Shown: one piece after another, positions 3,327 to 47,063 of the stretch
Layout: every line of letters begins with the position of its first letter
Position numbering within the stretch: position 1 is the first letter of the stretch
DNA from: Oscillospiraceae bacterium
GTDB lineage: Bacteria; Bacillota; Clostridia; Oscillospirales; Ruminococcaceae
Length of the DNA: 47,313 nucleotides
NCBI GenBank assembly: GCA_017555565.1
Contig: JAFZGF010000038.1
Span: 1 to 47,313 of the forward strand
Direction: 5' to 3'
Program-made: the position numbers and the translations under genes
Notes under the pieces: generated by a model
Told to the model about the DNA's origin: nothing
Databases searched by the model: none
Seen by the model: the letters and a program-made list of their open reading frames with translations, nothing else

Positions 3327-5315
3327 TTACTCGTTGCCACCTTCAGGTGTGGCAACATCCGGAGCCGGATCAGCTGTTGGTTCTGGTGTTGGCTCTGGAG
3401 TTGGTTCTGGTGTAGATTCTGGAGTTGGCCGCGGTGTGGATTCTGGAGTAGGTGTTGGTGTTGGTTCAAGATCCGGGCACATATTGGCTTTATGCTGGCC
3501 TATATGTTTTTTACAACTGTCAGGACAATCACTTTCACCATGTTTGCCTTCAGCACCGCAAAGTTTGCAGATATGTTTTTCTGTGATATGTTCCTTGGAT
3601 TCACAGAACTTACATACAGGGTGATCTCTATGTTCTGTTGAACCACATACTGAACATGTTGGTGGGCCAGAGGAAATAACAAGGCTTACTGTGCTGCCTA
3701 CAACAACTTCTGTGCCTGCCCGTGGATTCTGTTCAATAACTGTACCATAAGGTGAACCATCTTCTCTGTATGAATAAGTACCTACAACCAAGTTGCTCTT
3801 TGCAAGAATTTTGGAAGCATCAGAGAACTGGTTGCCTGTAACGCCTACAACAAATGTTTTGTTTTTGTTATCTGGATCACCAGATGATACATAAAGTGTT
3901 ACAGTGTCGCCTGAATGAATAATAGTGCCTTTTTCAGGGTCTGTTTTCACAACGTAACCACGATCAATCTTCTTATCAGCAATTGTTTTGATAACAACAT
4001 TAACTTCCAGTTCTGAAAGAATTCTTTCGGCTTCGCCTCTGGAATAATTGGAAAGATCCTGTATCTGGCTGCTCATTGGGCCCTGGCTTACTTTAAGTTT
4101 TACAAGGCCGCCAGCTTTGATTGTTTTTGGAGGTTTAGGATTCTGTGACATAACGACGCCCTGTTCGTATTCACCTGAATAAAGATATTCAACTTCATAT
4201 TTGAACTCTTTATTGTTCTTTACATCAGCTTCATACATACCAACAAAACTTGGAAGTTCAACATCTGGCTGTTTTGAAAGCAATGGGCTGTTGTTTGATT
4301 TGAGAATCATAAAGCAGGCAATAATTGCACTTACAAAAAACGCTGCTGCAACACCCGCCATAATAGGAAGTGTTACACGGAAACCTTTTTTCACTTTTAC
4401 TTTTTTAGCTGGCTTCTTATCGGCCACTTTATTCACCACCACTGTCTGTGTTTTTTCATCTTCTCCATATGGGAAGATAATAGCAGGATTTGATTTGAAA
4501 TCCTGTAAATCCTTCAGCATTTCCTGTGCTGACTGATATCTGAATGAAGGCTGTTTTTCGATAGCCTTCATTACAATCTGTTCAAGGCCTGCAGGAATTG
4601 TATCTACAATTTCTGTAGGTTTTTTTGCTGTTTCCTGAACCTGCTTCATAGCAACTGAAACAGCTGAATCCGATACAAACGGAAGCACTCCTGTAAGCAT
4701 TTCATACATCATAATACCGATGCTGTATATGTCACTGCGACCGTCAGAATTTTTGCCGCGAACCTGTTCAGGGCTGATGTAGTGTACAGAACCGATAGCT
4801 TTGTCTGTAACTGTTTTCTGGTTTGCTGTGGACAGACGGGCGATGCCGAAGTCCATTATTTTGAGTGTGCCGTCACGCAGAAGCATTATATTGTGAGGTT
4901 TGAGATCTCTGTGGATAATACCGTTGTCGTGAGCATGACTGATGGCAGAAAGAATAGTACCTGTAAATGACACTGTTTCCTGCCATGTAAGAACCTTGCG
5001 GTTGTCGATATATTCTTTGAGAGTAATACCATCAATATATTCGACAACAATGTATTTTTCATTGTCGTTTATATTTACATCAATAACCTTGATGATGTTT
5101 GGATTGTCCAGCAGAGAGATAGCCTTGCTTTCATTTTTAAATCGGCGCACCAGTTCTTCATTTTCAAAAAATTCGTGCTTGAGGAACTTGATTGCAACTG
5201 TTTCGCCTGTAAGTGTATCTATTGCTTTGTAGACATTGGACATACCGCCAACACCTATCAGGGATATAACATCATATCGGTTATCTACTTTTTTTCCTAT
5301 ATAATTGTTATCCAT
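3327..5315 (-). CDS. prkC: PASTA-domain Ser/Thr kinase with a Cys/His-rich extracellular tail
   Basis: A 662-residue membrane kinase of the PrkC/Stk1 family that senses muropeptides or lipid II and phosphorylates cytoplasmic targets. Kinase domain 10-275: Gly loop GVGGMSNVY (21-29), Lys43, HRD (135-137), DFG (155-157), SPE (181-183). A basic stretch precedes the membrane span (about 312-337). Three PASTA repeats follow (about 354-412, 413-481, 484-551). The tail is unusual: residues 554-613 hold ten Cys and seven His in knuckle spacing (first C-x2-C-x4-H-x5-C), then a Pro/Thr/Glu tail to the end. The Bacillus protein has an Ig-like end instead. The same Cys/His-plus-Pro ending occurs in the SGNH protein at 44524-46959. 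The phosphatase gene prpC is just upstream. Confidence 0.96.
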   Translation of the reverse strand: MDNNYIGKKVDNRYDVISLIGVGGMSNVYKAIDTLTGETVAIKFLKHEFFENEELVRRFKNESKAISLLDNPNIIKVIDVNINDNEKYIVVEYIDGITLKEYIDNRKVLTWQETVSFTGTILSAISHAHDNGIIHRDLKPHNIMLLRDGTLKIMDFGIARLSTANQKTVTDKAIGSVHYISPEQVRGKNSDGRSDIYSIGIMMYEMLTGVLPFVSDSAVSVAMKQVQETAKKPTEIVDTIPAGLEQIVMKAIEKQPSFRYQSAQEMLKDLQDFKSNPAIIFPYGEDEKTQTVVVNKVADKKPAKKVKVKKGFRVTLPIMAGVAAAFFVSAIIACFMILKSNNSPLLSKQPDVELPSFVGMYEADVKNNKEFKYEVEYLYSGEYEQGVVMSQNPKPPKTIKAGGLVKLKVSQGPMSSQIQDLSNYSRGEAERILSELEVNVVIKTIADKKIDRGYVVKTDPEKGTIIHSGDTVTLYVSSGDPDNKNKTFVVGVTGNQFSDASKILAKSNLVVGTYSYREDGSPYGTVIEQNPRAGTEVVVGSTVSLVISSGPPTCSVCGSTEHRDHPVCKFCESKEHITEKHICKLCGAEGKHGESDCPDSCKKHIGQHKANMCPDLEPTPTPTPESTPRPTPESTPEPTPEPTPEPTADPAPDVATPEGGNE

Positions 5316-32811: not shown

Positions 32812-32879
32812 TATATAAAATCCTTTCATATGATGTTAATAACAGTATTTGCAGGATTTTGTTTTTTATACAGCGTGTA

Positions 32880-32907
32880 TTGTTTTCGAAGTTAATAATG
32901 ATATAAT
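32880..32907 (+). promoter_or_regulatory. Probable promoter of the GYN-repeat gene
   Basis: -35 TTGTTT (32880-32885), 16-base spacer, perfect -10 TATAAT (32902-32907). The leader is very short, with GGGGGA before the ATG at 32927. Confidence 0.5.
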
Positions 32908-32926
32908 GATATGGGGGACCATTAAA

Positions 32927-33505
32927 ATGAACTATTTTTTTATCGCATTTTTGGCATTGATACTTCTTATATCATTATTCAAGTTCAATGGCTATAATTC
33001 TGACGGTTTCAACCGAAAAGGAATACATCTGAACGGAACAAGATATGATGATGATGGCTATGATTGTAAAGGTTATAACAAAAATGGCTACAATCGTCAA
33101 GGGTACAATAAAGAAGGATATAATTACAAAGGATATAATTATTACGGATATACTATAGAAGGAAAAAACATTAACGGACAATATAACAGACTATTTGATA
33201 AAGTGAATAAAGATGGCTTTTGTCCGTTATCTGATTTTCCCATCATAATTACTACACACGCAAAACAACGTATTATCGAACGCATTCCGCCCAATTATTA
33301 TGATGATATGAATACTATGGTATACGATGCCTATTGTTACGGAAAAAGTAAATATCAGGTAAAGAAAAGTTCTGCACAGCAAATGGAAACATATGAGTCA
33401 CGATACGATAGTAGCAGATTACTGATATATCGTGGTTATATATATGTCTTTTCTACAGATAATAAACTTATTACTGTTTACAAAAACAATAACATTATAT
33501 TGTAA
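32927..33505 (+). CDS. Membrane-anchored protein with Gly-Tyr-Asn pentad repeats
   Basis: A 192-residue protein of unknown function. One N-terminal hydrophobic span (about 3-18) is followed by a run of five-residue repeats, consensus xxGYN, through residues 21-82 (GYNKNGYNRQGYNKEGYN in the middle). A globular part of about 90 residues follows, starting TTHAKQRIIERI, which looks like the His-Ala-xx-Arg opening of DUF4258/RelE-like small domains; this is a weak match. Codons differ between repeat copies, so the repeats are old or under selection. Base use is more AT-rich than the neighbours, hinting at transfer. Lone plus-strand gene with own promoter and terminator. Confidence 0.82.
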   Translation: MNYFFIAFLALILLISLFKFNGYNSDGFNRKGIHLNGTRYDDDGYDCKGYNKNGYNRQGYNKEGYNYKGYNYYGYTIEGKNINGQYNRLFDKVNKDGFCPLSDFPIIITTHAKQRIIERIPPNYYDDMNTMVYDAYCYGKSKYQVKKSSAQQMETYESRYDSSRLLIYRGYIYVFSTDNKLITVYKNNNIIL

Positions 33506-42554: not shown

Positions 42555-43334
42555 TTATTGTGAAATATAGTCTCTGAACCGTGGACTGTTTTCTTTCAAA
42601 ACCTCTTCTATAGAGTAGAAATCAAGCTTTACTGCATTATCTCTTGTCAGATGTTTATATCTTTCCCATTGTTTTTCATATTCATCTTCTGTAACTTTCT
42701 GGCCGTTATAGTCATAATGTTCCGTATCAGGGTCACCAGTCATCATTCTTCCAAAAGTAAATTCCCTTGCTGTGCCATCTTTATATATTTCTGTTACAAA
42801 TATAATCAGACCTGTTGTGCTGTGGTAATAAATTATAGTATTGGGATATACATAAAAAGATCCGTGCATTCCGTTGCCCATATTGGCCGGAATATTAATG
42901 ACTTCACCATCCCTATATGTATAAACATATTTATGTATTCCTGCTTCATTTATACTCAGAAAAAGCTCTGGCACATCATCTCCGGTGATATCATATATGG
43001 CATAATCAGGGCAGTATTCATCCCAGTCCGAATAAAATAATTCGTTACGGATTTTTTCATTGTAAGCATTTATTGCCCGATTATATTCATTGCTGCAGCT
43101 TGTATCTGTTGCCAGAAAAACAACATCTTTTGCCATATCTTTCAATACATCTGTATGTAATGACTGTTCTTCCTGTGGTTGAGATGAAACACTGTTGCTT
43201 TCAAACTGTGATGAAGTTGGCGCCTGTGGCTGGGAAGCGGTTTGTTCTGACTGACCACAACCGCCAACCAATAAACTGAATAGCAATATAAACACCAAAC
43301 CAATATTTTTTATCATCTGCATTTTATCTTTCAT
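42555..43334 (-). CDS. Lipoprotein with Ser/Gln linker, unknown (A)
   Basis: A 259-residue predicted lipoprotein. The signal peptide ends in a lipobox LVGGC with Cys26, followed by a Ser/Gln/Pro linker (about 27-58) and a globular part of about 200 residues. The segment YAIYDITGDDVPELFLSI resembles the Asp-rich loop of VCBS/FG-GAP or dockerin-like calcium sites. It starts two bases after the stop of lipoprotein B, with which it shares the signal and linker style, so the two may be distant paralogues. Function unknown. Confidence 0.82.
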   Translation of the reverse strand: MKDKMQMIKNIGLVFILLFSLLVGGCGQSEQTASQPQAPTSSQFESNSVSSQPQEEQSLHTDVLKDMAKDVVFLATDTSCSNEYNRAINAYNEKIRNELFYSDWDEYCPDYAIYDITGDDVPELFLSINEAGIHKYVYTYRDGEVINIPANMGNGMHGSFYVYPNTIIYYHSTTGLIIFVTEIYKDGTAREFTFGRMMTGDPDTEHYDYNGQKVTEDEYEKQWERYKHLTRDNAVKLDFYSIEEVLKENSPRFRDYISQ

Positions 43335-43336
43335 CT

Positions 43337-44467
43337 CTATTCCAGTCCGTTTTCAGTAATATCAATAACCCGTATTGAATAACCTATTGAGGATACATAA
43401 TTATTTTCTCTTACAATTTCTGCTGTGCCATCTCCATCCACATCGCCTATAAAAAAGTGTGGTCTGTATCTCAGAATATTGACACTGTTGTCATTGTTCG
43501 CATAGTTTGTATATATGGAGTATGTTTCTATATTGCCTTCCCGGTTATACTGATATGTATTGTATTCAAATCCGCCAAAATCTTCGCTGTCATAATTATC
43601 AGAAGGCTTTACAAATGAACAATTTACATTGTTCGGGTACTGTTTATGGTTCAGTGAATCCTTTGAAACTGTAAAATCATAATACGAATCAAGTTTAACA
43701 TATTTGTCCCCTATAAAAACAGCTGTCATACGATATACAGTATTTTTATTGCCTGCAGGTAAAGACGTGTCGGTTTCTTCCTTTTCGGCCCAGGCCACAT
43801 TGTCAGCTTCAACAATGGCACAATCCATATCATTGTATTTAAACAACCAGGCATCTGAAATTAATATTGGAACCTTTGTCCCGTACAATTCCTGCCGTTT
43901 TTTATCAAAATAATCAATCCATTTCTGTTGTGGCATTTCTTCTGTATCACCCCTGTAACTGATATATTTCACATCAGCTGTAAAAATATCCCAGTCACCA
44001 TTGGTTTTGGCAATTATAGCATTCCCAAGTTTTCCATAGTTTGTTGAATCCGGATGATAATAATCCTTTGCATAAAGGTTTACTGCGTCTTTTCTTTCCC
44101 ATGCATCATAGTCAACTTCGGGATAATAGCCGTTCATTCCCCATCCTTTTTCTTCGTCTACACGCCTGAGTTGCTGACCATCAACTGTGTATGAAACAGG
44201 TTGATAATATACATCACCATACCCTTCCCAAGGTAAAAGAAAATCCGTATCTACAAATGTATACAAGACATTGTCAGATATTACAGCAGACTGTTCTGTT
44301 TTTTCTGACTGTGGTGTAACTGTACTTTCCTGCTGTAAAGAAACACTGCTGCTTTCCATCCGTGAAGAAGATGGAGACTGCGGATGTGAGCTGGGTTGTT
44401 CTTCTGCGCAGGAACTTATAAGTAAAAGTATCGGCAGCATCAAAAAGCAAATTAACTTTTTTATCAT
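43337..44467 (-). CDS. Lipoprotein with Ser/Gln linker, unknown (B)
   Basis: A 376-residue predicted lipoprotein. Start at 44467 (MIKKLICFLMLPILLLISSC; lipid on Cys20), with AAGGAAAA before it; an upstream in-frame ATG is less likely. A Ser/Pro/Gln linker (about 21-65) leads to a large Tyr- and Asp-rich globular part. Near the C-terminus GDVDGDGTAEIVRE is a good match to a calcium-binding DxDxDG loop as in VCBS or FG-GAP repeats. Paired with lipoprotein A in one transcript. No function recognised. Confidence 0.84.
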   Translation of the reverse strand: MIKKLICFLMLPILLLISSCAEEQPSSHPQSPSSSRMESSSVSLQQESTVTPQSEKTEQSAVISDNVLYTFVDTDFLLPWEGYGDVYYQPVSYTVDGQQLRRVDEEKGWGMNGYYPEVDYDAWERKDAVNLYAKDYYHPDSTNYGKLGNAIIAKTNGDWDIFTADVKYISYRGDTEEMPQQKWIDYFDKKRQELYGTKVPILISDAWLFKYNDMDCAIVEADNVAWAEKEETDTSLPAGNKNTVYRMTAVFIGDKYVKLDSYYDFTVSKDSLNHKQYPNNVNCSFVKPSDNYDSEDFGGFEYNTYQYNREGNIETYSIYTNYANNDNSVNILRYRPHFFIGDVDGDGTAEIVRENNYVSSIGYSIRVIDITENGLE

Positions 44468-44489
44468 ATTATTTTCCTTATATAACACA

Positions 44490-44516
44490 GACAAGGCATC
44501 ACAGGATACCTTGTCT
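44490..44516. terminator. Stem-loop after the SGNH gene
   Basis: Stem AGACAAGG / CCTTGTCT with an 11-base loop, between the SGNH stop and lipoprotein B. The T run is on the plus strand (TTTTTG), while the genes here are on the minus strand, so it may not end the SGNH transcript well. Confidence 0.4.
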
Positions 44517-44523
44517 TTTTGTT

Positions 44524-46959
44524 TTATTCTGTTGTTTCTGGGACTGGCGCAGGATCTGCAGGTTGTTCAGGTATTGGTTGTGGATGCTGTGTGTGCTCTG
44601 TAGAACCGCATTCTGGGCAATGAGTTGCTGTGCAATTTACAGCATTGCACCAGGAACAGTGATTTTCTGCTGTATGACCTTCACCGCCGCAGGAAGCACA
44701 TTTTATAACCGGAACAGGTACATCTGTAATAACCACAACACAGGTTGCAGACCGGCCGCCCACAGTTACAGTAACTGTATCTGTAAGTGTACCAGATGGG
44801 CTGGTAAGGTCGCTGCGCACAGTCACTGTGCCACCGCTTACAGAAACATAGCCGTTGGCAGATGACCAGCTGGCAGTTGTGTCCACCCCTTCAGGTCTGT
44901 CTGGAAAAGCCAGTACAGGGGTTGCGGTAAGTGTGGCTGTACCACCAGGTGTCAATGTAATTTCACCGTTTGACAGTGAAACGGATTTCACATAGTTAGG
45001 TTCCTGTTTTACAACAATTGTAATCTTGGCCGTGCAATTGCCTACTGTGCAGGTAATTTCTGCAGTACCAGCAGAGTTTGCTACAACAGCACCTTCGGAT
45101 ACTGTAGCAACGGATGTGTCACTGCTGGACCATTTTGCCGCTTTGCTTTCAGTTGTATCAGCAGGATTATATGCTACTGTCAGCTGTGTCTTTTCGCCTT
45201 CAAACAGTTCTGTAGTGCCAGACAGAGAAATGCTTTCAAGTGGTTTAGGCCGTGTCACATTGACAGTATGCTGTGCAGTAAATCCATCAAGTGTAGCTGT
45301 GATTACTGCTGTGCCTTCCTTTTTAGCTGTAACTTTACCGCCTGCAACAACTGTAGCAACTGATTCATCACTTGAGGACCATACTGTGTTATTGACATCA
45401 GCAGAAGCACCTGCTGGTTTCAATTCAGCTTTAAGCTGAACTGTACCGCCCACCATAACGGCGCTGTCACCAGAAATTGAAATACCTTCCAATGGCTGAT
45501 TTACAACTACATCACATACTGTGTATATTTTATTACCCAATATTGAAGCGATAATCTGTGTTTTACCACCATTTACTGCTGTTACATTACCATTTTCATC
45601 AACTTTGGCAATTGAGGAATCTTCACTTGTCCAAGTCACCGTCCTATCGCCTCTAAATGCAGCTGTAATATCAGCTGTAAGCTGTTTTGACTGACCTTTA
45701 TCAAGTTTTATTGATTTTGTCAGATTTCCGTCTGCTTTAATTCCAAGCCCTACTTTAGCAAAGTTGGCTGTGATTACAATTTCTGTTACATTTTCATCAA
45801 CCTTAGGTACTGTAAATGTTACTGAATCTTCTGATGTAGAAGAAAGGCCTTCTACATTGCAGGACCAGCCTGTAAACACGCCACCGTTTTCTGTTACTGG
45901 AACAGCTCTTACTGGCTGTGATGTAATTGTGCGCTTGATTTTCTGTTCAACTTCACCTTCTACCCTGCCCAGGTTAACATCTGATGACTGGAAAACAATT
46001 CTGATTCTTGTTCCACGTACTGCGATAGGGTCTTCACTGATAACACCTGTAGGGGTTTCCTCTCTTTCAGGCACTTTTTTCAGTGGTTTAGGGCGTTTGT
46101 CTTCAGTGATATATGCGTGAGTGCGGAAGTATTCAAACATTGCGTCCATTCCCAACTTACTGAGATGAACACCATCGCCTATTGTGTAATCTTTTTTTGC
46201 AAAGCCTGTTTTTTCATCTTTCAATGCTTCTGCAGAGTTGATAAACTTATATCCCTCTTCTTTTGCCATTTCGGACAAAGCCTTGTTCATCTTGTCGATT
46301 GTCTGCATTGTGATGGCTGTGTTTTCACGTTCTTTGTCAACAGGAGGGATAGAGTTGATTATAATTTCAGCGTAAGGATAGGCCTTTTTGATGGCATTGA
46401 GGCCATCTTTATACATTTTTATAAAATCTTCAACAGTAAAGCCAAGAGTATTGTTTGTACCATATGTAATGATAATACGCTGTGGCTGGATAATCTTTAC
46501 AGCTTCGGGTACCGTTACAGCTTCTTTATATCCTTTAAAATATGTCATTTTAAGATTTGGAATATGTTGTACCCCCATCGATACAGCAGCTACTACATTG
46601 TTCCAGGTGGTGTGACCATAAACCTGGGTACGAACTGTGTTGGAGTCGCCTATAAAGAGAGTGTTGTCTATATATTCCTGGCCAGCATCCTCTGTTTCCA
46701 TAAGGATTGTATTGCCCAGCTGTTCAACATCAAGGGCTTCCTGGTCTTTATCGTAGGACTGGTCCAGCTCGTTTTCAACATATTCGTCAACTATGTCATT
46801 ATTCCCGCCGCAAGCTACCATAAATATTGGCAACATAAGAGCCGCAAGGGCAACTGCTATTATGCCTATATGCAATTTGCTACCGGATTTAGCCTGGCGG
46901 AATATGTATTTAATGCTTTTTGAAATATTGTTTTTCTTATTTGATTTTTTGCCTGACAT
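44524..46959 (-). CDS. Secreted SGNH/GDSL hydrolase with Ig-like domains and Cys/His-rich tail
   Basis: An 811-residue surface protein. A basic N-terminus leads into a span (about 29-49) ending in MVAC50, a possible lipobox with an unusually long n-region. SGNH domain 98-285: GDSN with Ser106, GTNN (167-170), and DGVH with Asp262 and His265. Then a linker, a beta-rich domain (about 312-402) and four Big_2/Ig-like domains (about 410-487, 490-570, 573-650, 656-745). The end is a Cys/His cluster (754-791, C-x2-C-x4-H-x5-C first) and a Pro-rich acidic tail, the same as in PrkC. SGNH enzymes deacylate esters; a cell-wall or glycan O-acetyl target is a guess. Start chosen by GGAGAA at 46959. Confidence 0.9.
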   Translation of the reverse strand: MSGKKSNKKNNISKSIKYIFRQAKSGSKLHIGIIAVALAALMLPIFMVACGGNNDIVDEYVENELDQSYDKDQEALDVEQLGNTILMETEDAGQEYIDNTLFIGDSNTVRTQVYGHTTWNNVVAAVSMGVQHIPNLKMTYFKGYKEAVTVPEAVKIIQPQRIIITYGTNNTLGFTVEDFIKMYKDGLNAIKKAYPYAEIIINSIPPVDKERENTAITMQTIDKMNKALSEMAKEEGYKFINSAEALKDEKTGFAKKDYTIGDGVHLSKLGMDAMFEYFRTHAYITEDKRPKPLKKVPEREETPTGVISEDPIAVRGTRIRIVFQSSDVNLGRVEGEVEQKIKRTITSQPVRAVPVTENGGVFTGWSCNVEGLSSTSEDSVTFTVPKVDENVTEIVITANFAKVGLGIKADGNLTKSIKLDKGQSKQLTADITAAFRGDRTVTWTSEDSSIAKVDENGNVTAVNGGKTQIIASILGNKIYTVCDVVVNQPLEGISISGDSAVMVGGTVQLKAELKPAGASADVNNTVWSSSDESVATVVAGGKVTAKKEGTAVITATLDGFTAQHTVNVTRPKPLESISLSGTTELFEGEKTQLTVAYNPADTTESKAAKWSSSDTSVATVSEGAVVANSAGTAEITCTVGNCTAKITIVVKQEPNYVKSVSLSNGEITLTPGGTATLTATPVLAFPDRPEGVDTTASWSSANGYVSVSGGTVTVRSDLTSPSGTLTDTVTVTVGGRSATCVVVITDVPVPVIKCASCGGEGHTAENHCSWCNAVNCTATHCPECGSTEHTQHPQPIPEQPADPAPVPETTE

Positions 46960-47063
46960 TATAATTCTCCATAAAATCAATATCTTGTTTAATATATAAT
47001 ACACTAATTTCGACAAAAAAGAAAGATATTAATTATTAAGTGACTGTTTTGTTACTTTTTAGG

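Follow-up and report, generated by a model that had tools for sequence, protein, structure and literature searches.

Zinc knuckles (PF00098), such as those of AIR2 (2LLI), TUT7 and retroviral nucleocapsid, are to our knowledge intracellular or virion components that bind nucleic acids and proteins. The short Cys/His-rich blocks considered here resemble such knuckles in their C-x2-C-x4-H-x4-C units, in the Gly that precedes the His and in their arrangement in tandem pairs, yet differ in being bacterial, predicted to lie outside the cytoplasm, neutral to acidic in charge and mixed with units of CCHH and CHCC form. Two such blocks are encoded in the window, i.e., the whole 47,313-nucleotide stretch analyzed (Oscillospiraceae bacterium, assembly GCA_017555565.1, contig JAFZGF010000038.1), one near the C-terminus of an SGNH hydrolase (SGNH-1) and the other near that of the PASTA-domain kinase PrkC. 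With a probability of roughly 0.55, the blocks would represent a zinc-clamped contact module on proteins of the cell envelope.

Other described systems resemble the module in part. Zinc ribbons (DZR, PF12773; DZR_2, PF18912; Zn_ribbon_RRN7, PF11781; and Zn_ribbon_LapB, PF18073) likewise contain CxxC units, but matches of the module jump between these models, several without any single stretch passing alone, and His is a regular ligand in the module. Moreover, ribbons of membrane proteins, namely those at loci L176, L195 and L197, as judged by reading, and those in the accessible portions of the papers cited below, face the cytoplasm. Cys/His repeats of other kinds are widespread on Firmicutes surface proteins. 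Among these, CGxxEHTHTxxC (L252) and CSVCGNVE...H (L238) recall the module in combining extracellular Cys and His with CG and H, yet differ in spacing and sequence. YARHG is, according to the accessible part of its description, a small extracellular domain of kinases, peptidases and SH3 proteins, proposed to bind the wall; it is of a different sequence and predicted to be helical, metal ligands are not mentioned in that part, and the zinc ribbons on YARHG proteins are intracellular (PMC3355149). Similarly, the available text on lactococcal Llmg_0524 and Llmg_0526 describes membrane proteins with a zinc-binding CX2CX10CX2C motif, one of them tied to cell-wall integrity, but this motif comprises four Cys and its end of the protein is cytoplasmic by PhoA fusion (PMC4628341). 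Among the open-access papers searched, none was found to describe a zinc knuckle on the outside of a bacterium or a PASTA kinase with a tail of this kind. The original prediction, made from the window alone, had known of no description of the block; within those papers, this stands for the extracellular bacterial placing but not for the CCHC units, which are recognizable as zinc knuckles.

The features of the window under consideration are as follows.

44524..46959, minus strand: SGNH-1 from its ATG, comprising an N-terminal hydrophobic/lipobox-like segment, the SGNH hydrolase, three Big_2 stretches, the Cys/His block and a Pro/Glu end

44581..44703, minus strand: Cys/His block of SGNH-1, KCASCGGEGHTAENHCSWCNAVNCTATHCPECGSTEHTQHP, from the translation (7 Cys and 5 His)

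44527..44580, minus strand: Pro/Glu-rich end of SGNH-1, from the translation

3327..5315, minus strand: PrkC, comprising kinase, transmembrane segment, three PASTA stretches, Cys/His tail and Pro-rich end (Pfam Pkinase and PASTA; NF033483)

3474..3665, minus strand: Cys/His tail of PrkC, PPTCSVCGSTEHRDHPVC...KANMCP (64 residues, 9 Cys and 7 His)

3330..3473, minus strand: Pro/Thr/Glu-rich end of PrkC, from the translation

SGNH-1 is matched by the Pfam models Lipase_GDSL_2 (3.3e-12) and, over three stretches, Big_2 (1.5e-33). The ORF as listed (44524-47016, minus strand) opens at a TTG 19 codons upstream of an ATG, and the latter, at residue 20 of that ORF, is the likely start. Counted from this ATG, residues 754-789 (CASCGGEGHTAENHCSWCNAVNCTATHCPECGSTEH; 44593-44700, minus strand) display exactly the spacing originally predicted, i.e., C-x2-C-x4-H-x5-C-x2-C-x4-C-x4-C-x2-C-x4-H; the predicted end (residue 791, position 44587) had taken in the T-Q that comes next, after which one further His is found (HTQHP). 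As also predicted, the first of these spacings, C-x2-C-x4-H-x5-C-x2-C, recurs in the PrkC tail (3603-3656), and the translations reveal a Pro/Glu-rich sequence after both tails. Such an end also occurs without a preceding Cys/His block in L192 and L233. PrkC itself scored 501.9 bits with the PASTA kinase PrkC/Stk1 model NF033483 (above the equivalog score of 450), a match over residues 6-548 that stops just ahead of the tail and leaves the latter outside the model. The PASTA ectodomain contains no Cys over the 210 residues ahead of the tail, and the 200 residues ahead of the tail hold no or one Cys in 16 of 17 PrkC sequences, the exception being that of genome G014, with its broken frame. In that assembly, prkC (L136, G014:C38) is broken by a stop codon, with the tail on the downstream piece.

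When whole proteins were shuffled, the shared first spacing was seen in 0 of 20000 shuffles of SGNH-1 and 0 of 20000 of PrkC. Shuffling of the tails alone, such that their Cys/His-rich make-up was kept, returned the spacing in 0 of 20000 cases for SGNH-1 and in 21 of 20000 for PrkC. The Cys/His motif is real and common to the two proteins of the window; its origin by chance is rejected by these shuffles, together with the matches that a profile made from PrkC only gave in 16 genomes of the genus.

Seven types of carrier were recognized, namely the PASTA kinase, two SGNH paralogues, a CARDB-like LPXTG protein, a GH25 lysozyme, a Big_2 lipoprotein and a CWB2-Bmp protein, with export and distal position being judged from signal, transmembrane and lipobox segments and from domain order. 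In the genome to which the window belongs (2.08 Mb, 85 contigs), searches with each window tail as a single sequence gave weak matches on contigs C5 (E 0.0053) and C31 (E 0.19), the translations of which revealed two further carriers. That on C5 is a 614-residue CARDB-like protein (CARDB 0.0033, under its cut-off) in which an N-terminal signal-like segment is followed by four or more zinc-knuckle units and, at the C-terminus, an LPXTG-type anchor (TIGR01167, 19.0 bits; cut-off 15.9); its gene lies between what read as genes for an ABC-transporter ATPase and a MacB-type permease. The carrier on C31 is a second SGNH protein (SGNH-2; Lipase_GDSL_2, 1.1e-15) with an array of four units of the form CG(A/S)LGHSEVG(T/I)CPVCNS.KTPEPT and a fifth, CGDVGHSTDGTCPVCGSTYT. 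A search of the same genome for the right spacing in all frames gave 28 matches. A crude filter for Cys/His clusters, applied to loci of this genome, retained 21 frames, including the module of SGNH-1, PrkC and the C5 protein as well as a zinc-ribbon-type protein (L017), the remainder being by eye like non-coding frames; the sparser units of SGNH-2 were missed by this filter.

Profile A3 was derived exclusively from nine PrkC tails. Its scan of the 16 genus genomes returned 22 rows at E ≤ 0.001, with 17 being PrkC tails and five lying within four other proteins. These are SGNH-1 of the genome of the window (G000) and of G009 (two rows), a Big_2 lipoprotein of G009 and a protein of G010 in which Pfam recognizes three CWB2 stretches as well as a Bmp domain. 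In SGNH-1 of the window, it is the last unit of the block that was matched (E 6.5e-4). Six rows at E 0.001-0.01 also fall within carriers, and above E 0.01 carriers mingle, in the part of the rows that was read, with cytoplasmic zinc proteins, e.g., RecR (L180) and N-terminal zinc ribbons (L176 and L177). Profile A2, made from 17 double-knuckle CCHC units, matched 9 of the 16 genomes at E ≤ 2e-6; all of its 19 rows at this level lie in PrkC, CARDB-like or SGNH proteins, and the next row is at 0.0185. Since 17 of the 19 are seeds of A2, only the gap in E and the absence of other strong matches are informative. The GH25 lysozyme protein of G007 (L118; Glyco_hydro_25, 9.5e-32) was reached through a weak row of A2 (E 0.7); its block is identical to those of SGNH-1 from G002 and G006 at 23/35 and 22/35 positions outside the C/H pairs. 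This protein (G007:C17) also contains a SpaA-like domain and a choline-binding-type repeat next to the block.

The original prediction had taken the block for a portable module and had proposed a profile scan. Judging by the sequences retrieved, the module is indeed portable among otherwise unrelated exported proteins, the four proteins that A3 added to PrkC at E ≤ 0.001 all appearing to be exported and none to be cytoplasmic. In PrkC, SGNH-1, SGNH-2 and the lipoprotein, the block lies at the extremity most distant from the anchor; it is N-terminal, hence again distal, in the LPXTG-anchored CARDB-like protein. Pro/Ser/Thr linkers separate it from the body of the carrier.

Units of three forms can be distinguished: CCHC/CHHC knuckles (C-x2-C-x4-H-x4-C), CCHH units (C-x2-C-G-S-x-E/D-H-x2-H-P) and CHCC units (C-x4-H-x5-C-x2-C). 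Across 35 carriers, all 73 C-x2-C-x4-H units are followed by a further Cys or His within eight residues. In a raw count without a chance baseline, this fourth site is a His after x2 in 35 units, a Cys after x4 in 18, a His after x4 in 12 and another arrangement in 8, some of which may belong to the next unit. Cys and His interchange at this site in the manner of zinc ligands. The spacing of PF00098 is that of one class, i.e., 18 of the 73 units, with the 35 CCHH units having x2 and the CHCC units presenting their ligands in another order. On comparing four PrkC tails, all 16 C/H columns were invariant, as opposed to 18 of 46 other columns. Copies within four tandem arrays differ mostly at synonymous sites (uncorrected pN/pS 0.07, 0.12, 0.27 and 0.32), and a pN/pS of 0.31 was obtained between the four PrkC tails; the tail copies are under purifying selection. 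The net charge of the whole block (K+R-D-E) lies between 0 and -8 in all 35 carriers and is positive in none (0 to -11 with a shorter cut).

Profile A2 matched 48 PDB sequences, with AIR2 (E 2.8e-11), TUT7, TUT4 and retroviral nucleocapsids in the lead and the others being mostly what we take to be CCHC proteins. Of the Pfam models, zf-CCHC (cut-off 20.8) was passed by the block of the G009 CARDB-like protein alone (24.9) and by a shortened lipoprotein array (21.3, without any single passing stretch), with scores of 14.8 for the SGNH-1 tail and 8.8 for the PrkC tail of the window. With DZR_2 (cut-off 27), the SGNH-1 tail scored 12.8, and the PrkC tail scored 28.0 alone and 22.4 inside the whole protein. 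Passing scores were also obtained with Zn_ribbon_RRN7 for the G013 PrkC tail alone (30.8 vs. 27.1), with DZR for the whole lipoprotein (28.6 vs. 27.3) and with Zn_ribbon_LapB for the whole SGNH-2 of the genome of the window (28.7 vs. 25.7). As similarities go, these scattered matches agree on zinc, not on one fold. Neither a CCHH array, used as a single sequence, nor a CHCC profile found a convincing relative in the PDB (the best match was a ribosomal zinc protein at E 0.004 for the array and stood at E 0.0053 for the profile), such that these units may represent forms that are independent or greatly altered. Metal binding, one of the roles raised in the original prediction, would be the best reading of the blocks.

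The distribution of the module differs between carriers. Of the 16 genus genomes, 15 yielded a PrkC orthologue (that of G006 was not found; several of the genomes surveyed are incomplete assemblies), and all 15 orthologues have the tail. Outside the genus, where 25 genomes were searched and ten were without a readable locus, the tail is present in none of the 15 PrkC loci read, one of which (L139) breaks off ahead of the C-terminus. Among 396 genomes sampled from the family, PrkC of two species of the sister genus g19 carries just one CCHH unit, CPVCGSTEHTKHP or CPVCGSTEHLVHP, close to its end and followed by a Ser- or Pro-rich stretch. Because g19 PrkC bears this single unit, the sequences suggest that PrkC is the old home of the module. 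By comparison, the 28 SGNH proteins placed in a tree (which leaves out 4 of 32 matches, namely G002:C39, G004:C12, G006:C105 and G013:C70, with frames of 285-308 residues) include 11 with the module, 14 without any Cys repeat and three with a different Cys repeat in the same slot, calling for at least eight changes of tail state. For SGNH-1, knuckle units are absent from 9 of 16 proteins. In a relative from roe deer rectum (metagenome-assembled genome RGIG4610; 74% identity over the best segment), the Ig-like and Pro/Glu ends are both present, with no Cys/His block intervening. As a separate observation, the repeats filling the SGNH tail slot at L238 (G015) and at L237 and L249 (G003) include the CSVCGNVE...H type in both genomes, as if unlike repeats were interchangeable.

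Beyond the genus, a single-sequence search of 100 relatives gave nothing better than E 0.0037. At E ≤ 0.001, A3 matched five genomes of the family sample outside the genus, corresponding to the two g19 PrkC tails, two zinc-ribbon proteins (L195 and L197) and a 47-residue frame inside a topoisomerase-like gene (L194). In 394 genomes of the order, A3 matched six besides that of the window, comprising four CxxC zinc ribbons (L253-L256), a 59-residue frame (L257) and, weakly (7.6e-5), L252 of G958, a large protein that looks extracellular and carries the CGxxEHTHTxxC repeats described above. The CHCC profile A4, run at E ≤ 1e-4 on 398 genomes of the phylum, matched only the genome of the window. 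An origin in mobile elements or phages was considered and rejected: no relative was found in plasmids (E ≤ 0.01), in phages (E ≤ 0.1) or in viral contigs, the last searched with exact-peptide patterns that detect close relatives only, and three phage records at E 0.3-0.7 in another search were taken as noise.

In the model that we favor, the block would consist of very short units resembling zinc fingers, arrayed on cell-envelope proteins, with each unit most likely folding round one Zn2+ that stands in for a hydrophobic core. Attached to their carriers via Pro/Ser/Thr linkers and usually lying at the tip opposite the membrane anchor, such arrays would most likely engage in contacts that depend on metal, be it with a single wall or surface partner common to them or with one another; PrkC, as a wall-sensing kinase, and several proteins of the wall would thereby have a partner or place in common. 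In its simplest form, the module would be a zinc-held contact reaching into or through the wall. What argues for this is read from sequence, namely the portability of the block, the exported nature of its carriers, the conservation of ligands, purifying selection and the resemblance of the CCHC units to zinc knuckles; the identity of the metal as Zn2+, and a role in contact as opposed to storage or sensing, we infer.

Several observations weigh against this model. No one fold is established for all units, because these drift among the DZR, DZR_2, Zn_ribbon_RRN7 and Zn_ribbon_LapB models. Whole proteins stay below the zinc-knuckle cut-offs, the zf-CCHC passes holding for cut-out stretches only; the whole G009 CARDB-like protein reached only 21.8 with zf-CCHC_4 (cut-off 27), with zf-CCHC being unlisted at E ≤ 0.01. 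The block is internal, between domains, in the GH25 and CWB2-Bmp proteins, and 17 of the 28 SGNH proteins are without a knuckle array (14 of these without a Cys repeat), indicating that the SGNH enzyme can manage without the module. Furthermore, the SGNH-1 and PrkC tails of the window are alike beyond their Cys/His placing solely in the word CGSTEHxxHP, and their alignment score of 57 lies within 60 shuffles in which every C and H was held fixed (maximum 65). Kinship of the tails is instead argued by the wider cross-family set, 168 of 398 pairs of which exceed all 60 such shuffles (about 6 or 7 being expected by chance, although the pairs are not independent).

The main rival to the contact model is metal sensing or storage, with the arrays capturing Zn2+, or some other thiophilic metal, within the wall, the occupancy of PrkC reporting on supply and the other carriers serving as a reservoir. 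Arrays dense in ligands, of one to seven or so units and of freely varying copy number, would suit such a role, as would the signalling receptor PrkC being the carrier with a tail in 15 of 15 genus orthologues. Nonetheless, no zinc transporter or regulator was noticed among ORFs of at least 150 residues in the window (12900-44500) or of at least 120 residues at L191 and L190, a reading outside of which the neighbors of PrkC lie and which short regulators would escape; it is not evident why a hydrolase or CARDB-like protein would require a reservoir, and PrkC of the sister genus bears just one unit. Sensing or buffering is unlikely. The remaining explanations fit less well than the contact model. 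It is improbable that the cysteines form disulfides, be they redox-responsive or structural. They are exported, CxxC pairs can be redox active and some clostridia, in the accessible part of one paper, have DsbA candidates (PMC12453122), yet the same part describes obligate anaerobes as tending to keep Cys out of exported proteins (PMC12453122). Nor would disulfides account for the conservation of His to the same degree as Cys (16 of 16 C/H columns in the four PrkC tails) or for Cys/His interchange at the fourth site, and CCHH units hold only the CxxC pair.

That the block is a neutral coding repeat, spreading and expanding in linkers without function, finds some encouragement in its repeated gain and loss (at least eight changes), its tandem expansion and the other Cys repeats in the same slot of 3 of 28 SGNH proteins, but is rendered quite improbable by the low pN/pS of the four arrays and between the four PrkC tails, and by retention of the tail in 15 of 15 PrkC orthologues. 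Nucleic-acid binding, e.g., the holding of extracellular DNA or RNA in the manner of retroviral and AIR2/TUT knuckles, would be in line with the alignment of CCHC units to nucleic-acid-binding knuckles. Such knuckles are, however, basic as a rule, and the 35 blocks are neutral to acidic; AIR2 knuckles reportedly also bind protein, such that knuckle similarity alone is no proof of nucleic acid as ligand. This explanation is very improbable. The sorting or anchoring tag entertained in the original prediction, to which processing can be added, is the most improbable of all. The C-terminal position on PrkC and SGNH proteins and the occurrence on several exported proteins first spoke for it, but the block is N-terminal or internal in three carrier types, most carriers own what reads as an anchor-like segment (an LPXTG-type anchor in one case), 9 of 16 SGNH-1 proteins do without knuckle units, and there is nothing of a sortase-type signal in positions that vary from C-terminal to N-terminal to internal, with no hydrophobic segment after the window tails. 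No tail-processing enzyme was noticed, no search having been aimed at one.

Returning to the zinc-held contact module, a tentative scenario for its history can be offered. Extracellular zinc fingers may have arisen in this genus, most likely on the tip of PrkC, and then have been passed on to hydrolases, to a lysozyme and a lipoprotein and to an LPXTG protein; the resulting zinc-dependent contact code, common to all of these, would gather the sensor and the wall enzymes on one partner or link them with one another. A knuckle array outside a Gram-positive cell, carried by a wall-sensing kinase and by wall enzymes, would put the fold to a new use and be a rare exception to the exclusion of Cys from the exported proteins of anaerobes. 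It raises the questions of whether the tip of PrkC responds to zinc and whether the proteins that bear tails come together, or come upon one ligand, by way of these. The fast swapping of the module would, in addition, offer a natural laboratory for the spread of new extracellular domains.

Finally, several minor observations were made in the course of this analysis. Directly after prkC in five species (G015, G002, G013, G004 and G011; L129, L130, L131, L132 and L134), there is a PASTA protein of some 250-270 residues that has neither a kinase domain nor a Cys/His tail. The SGNH-1 gene of the window is followed by two lipoprotein-like genes (42555-43334 and 43337-44494, minus strand), alike in their Ser/Gln-rich N-terminal stretches; a relative of the 43337-44494 gene also comes after the tail-less SGNH gene at L192. 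Elsewhere in the window, a 218-residue ORF (32849-33505, plus strand) contains a run of GYN-x-x / G-Y-x-x-x-G-like repeats. Lastly, L117 (G010:C139) encodes a very long array of the TCTATGLTEGSHCGVCGEVI type, another Cys/His repeat.

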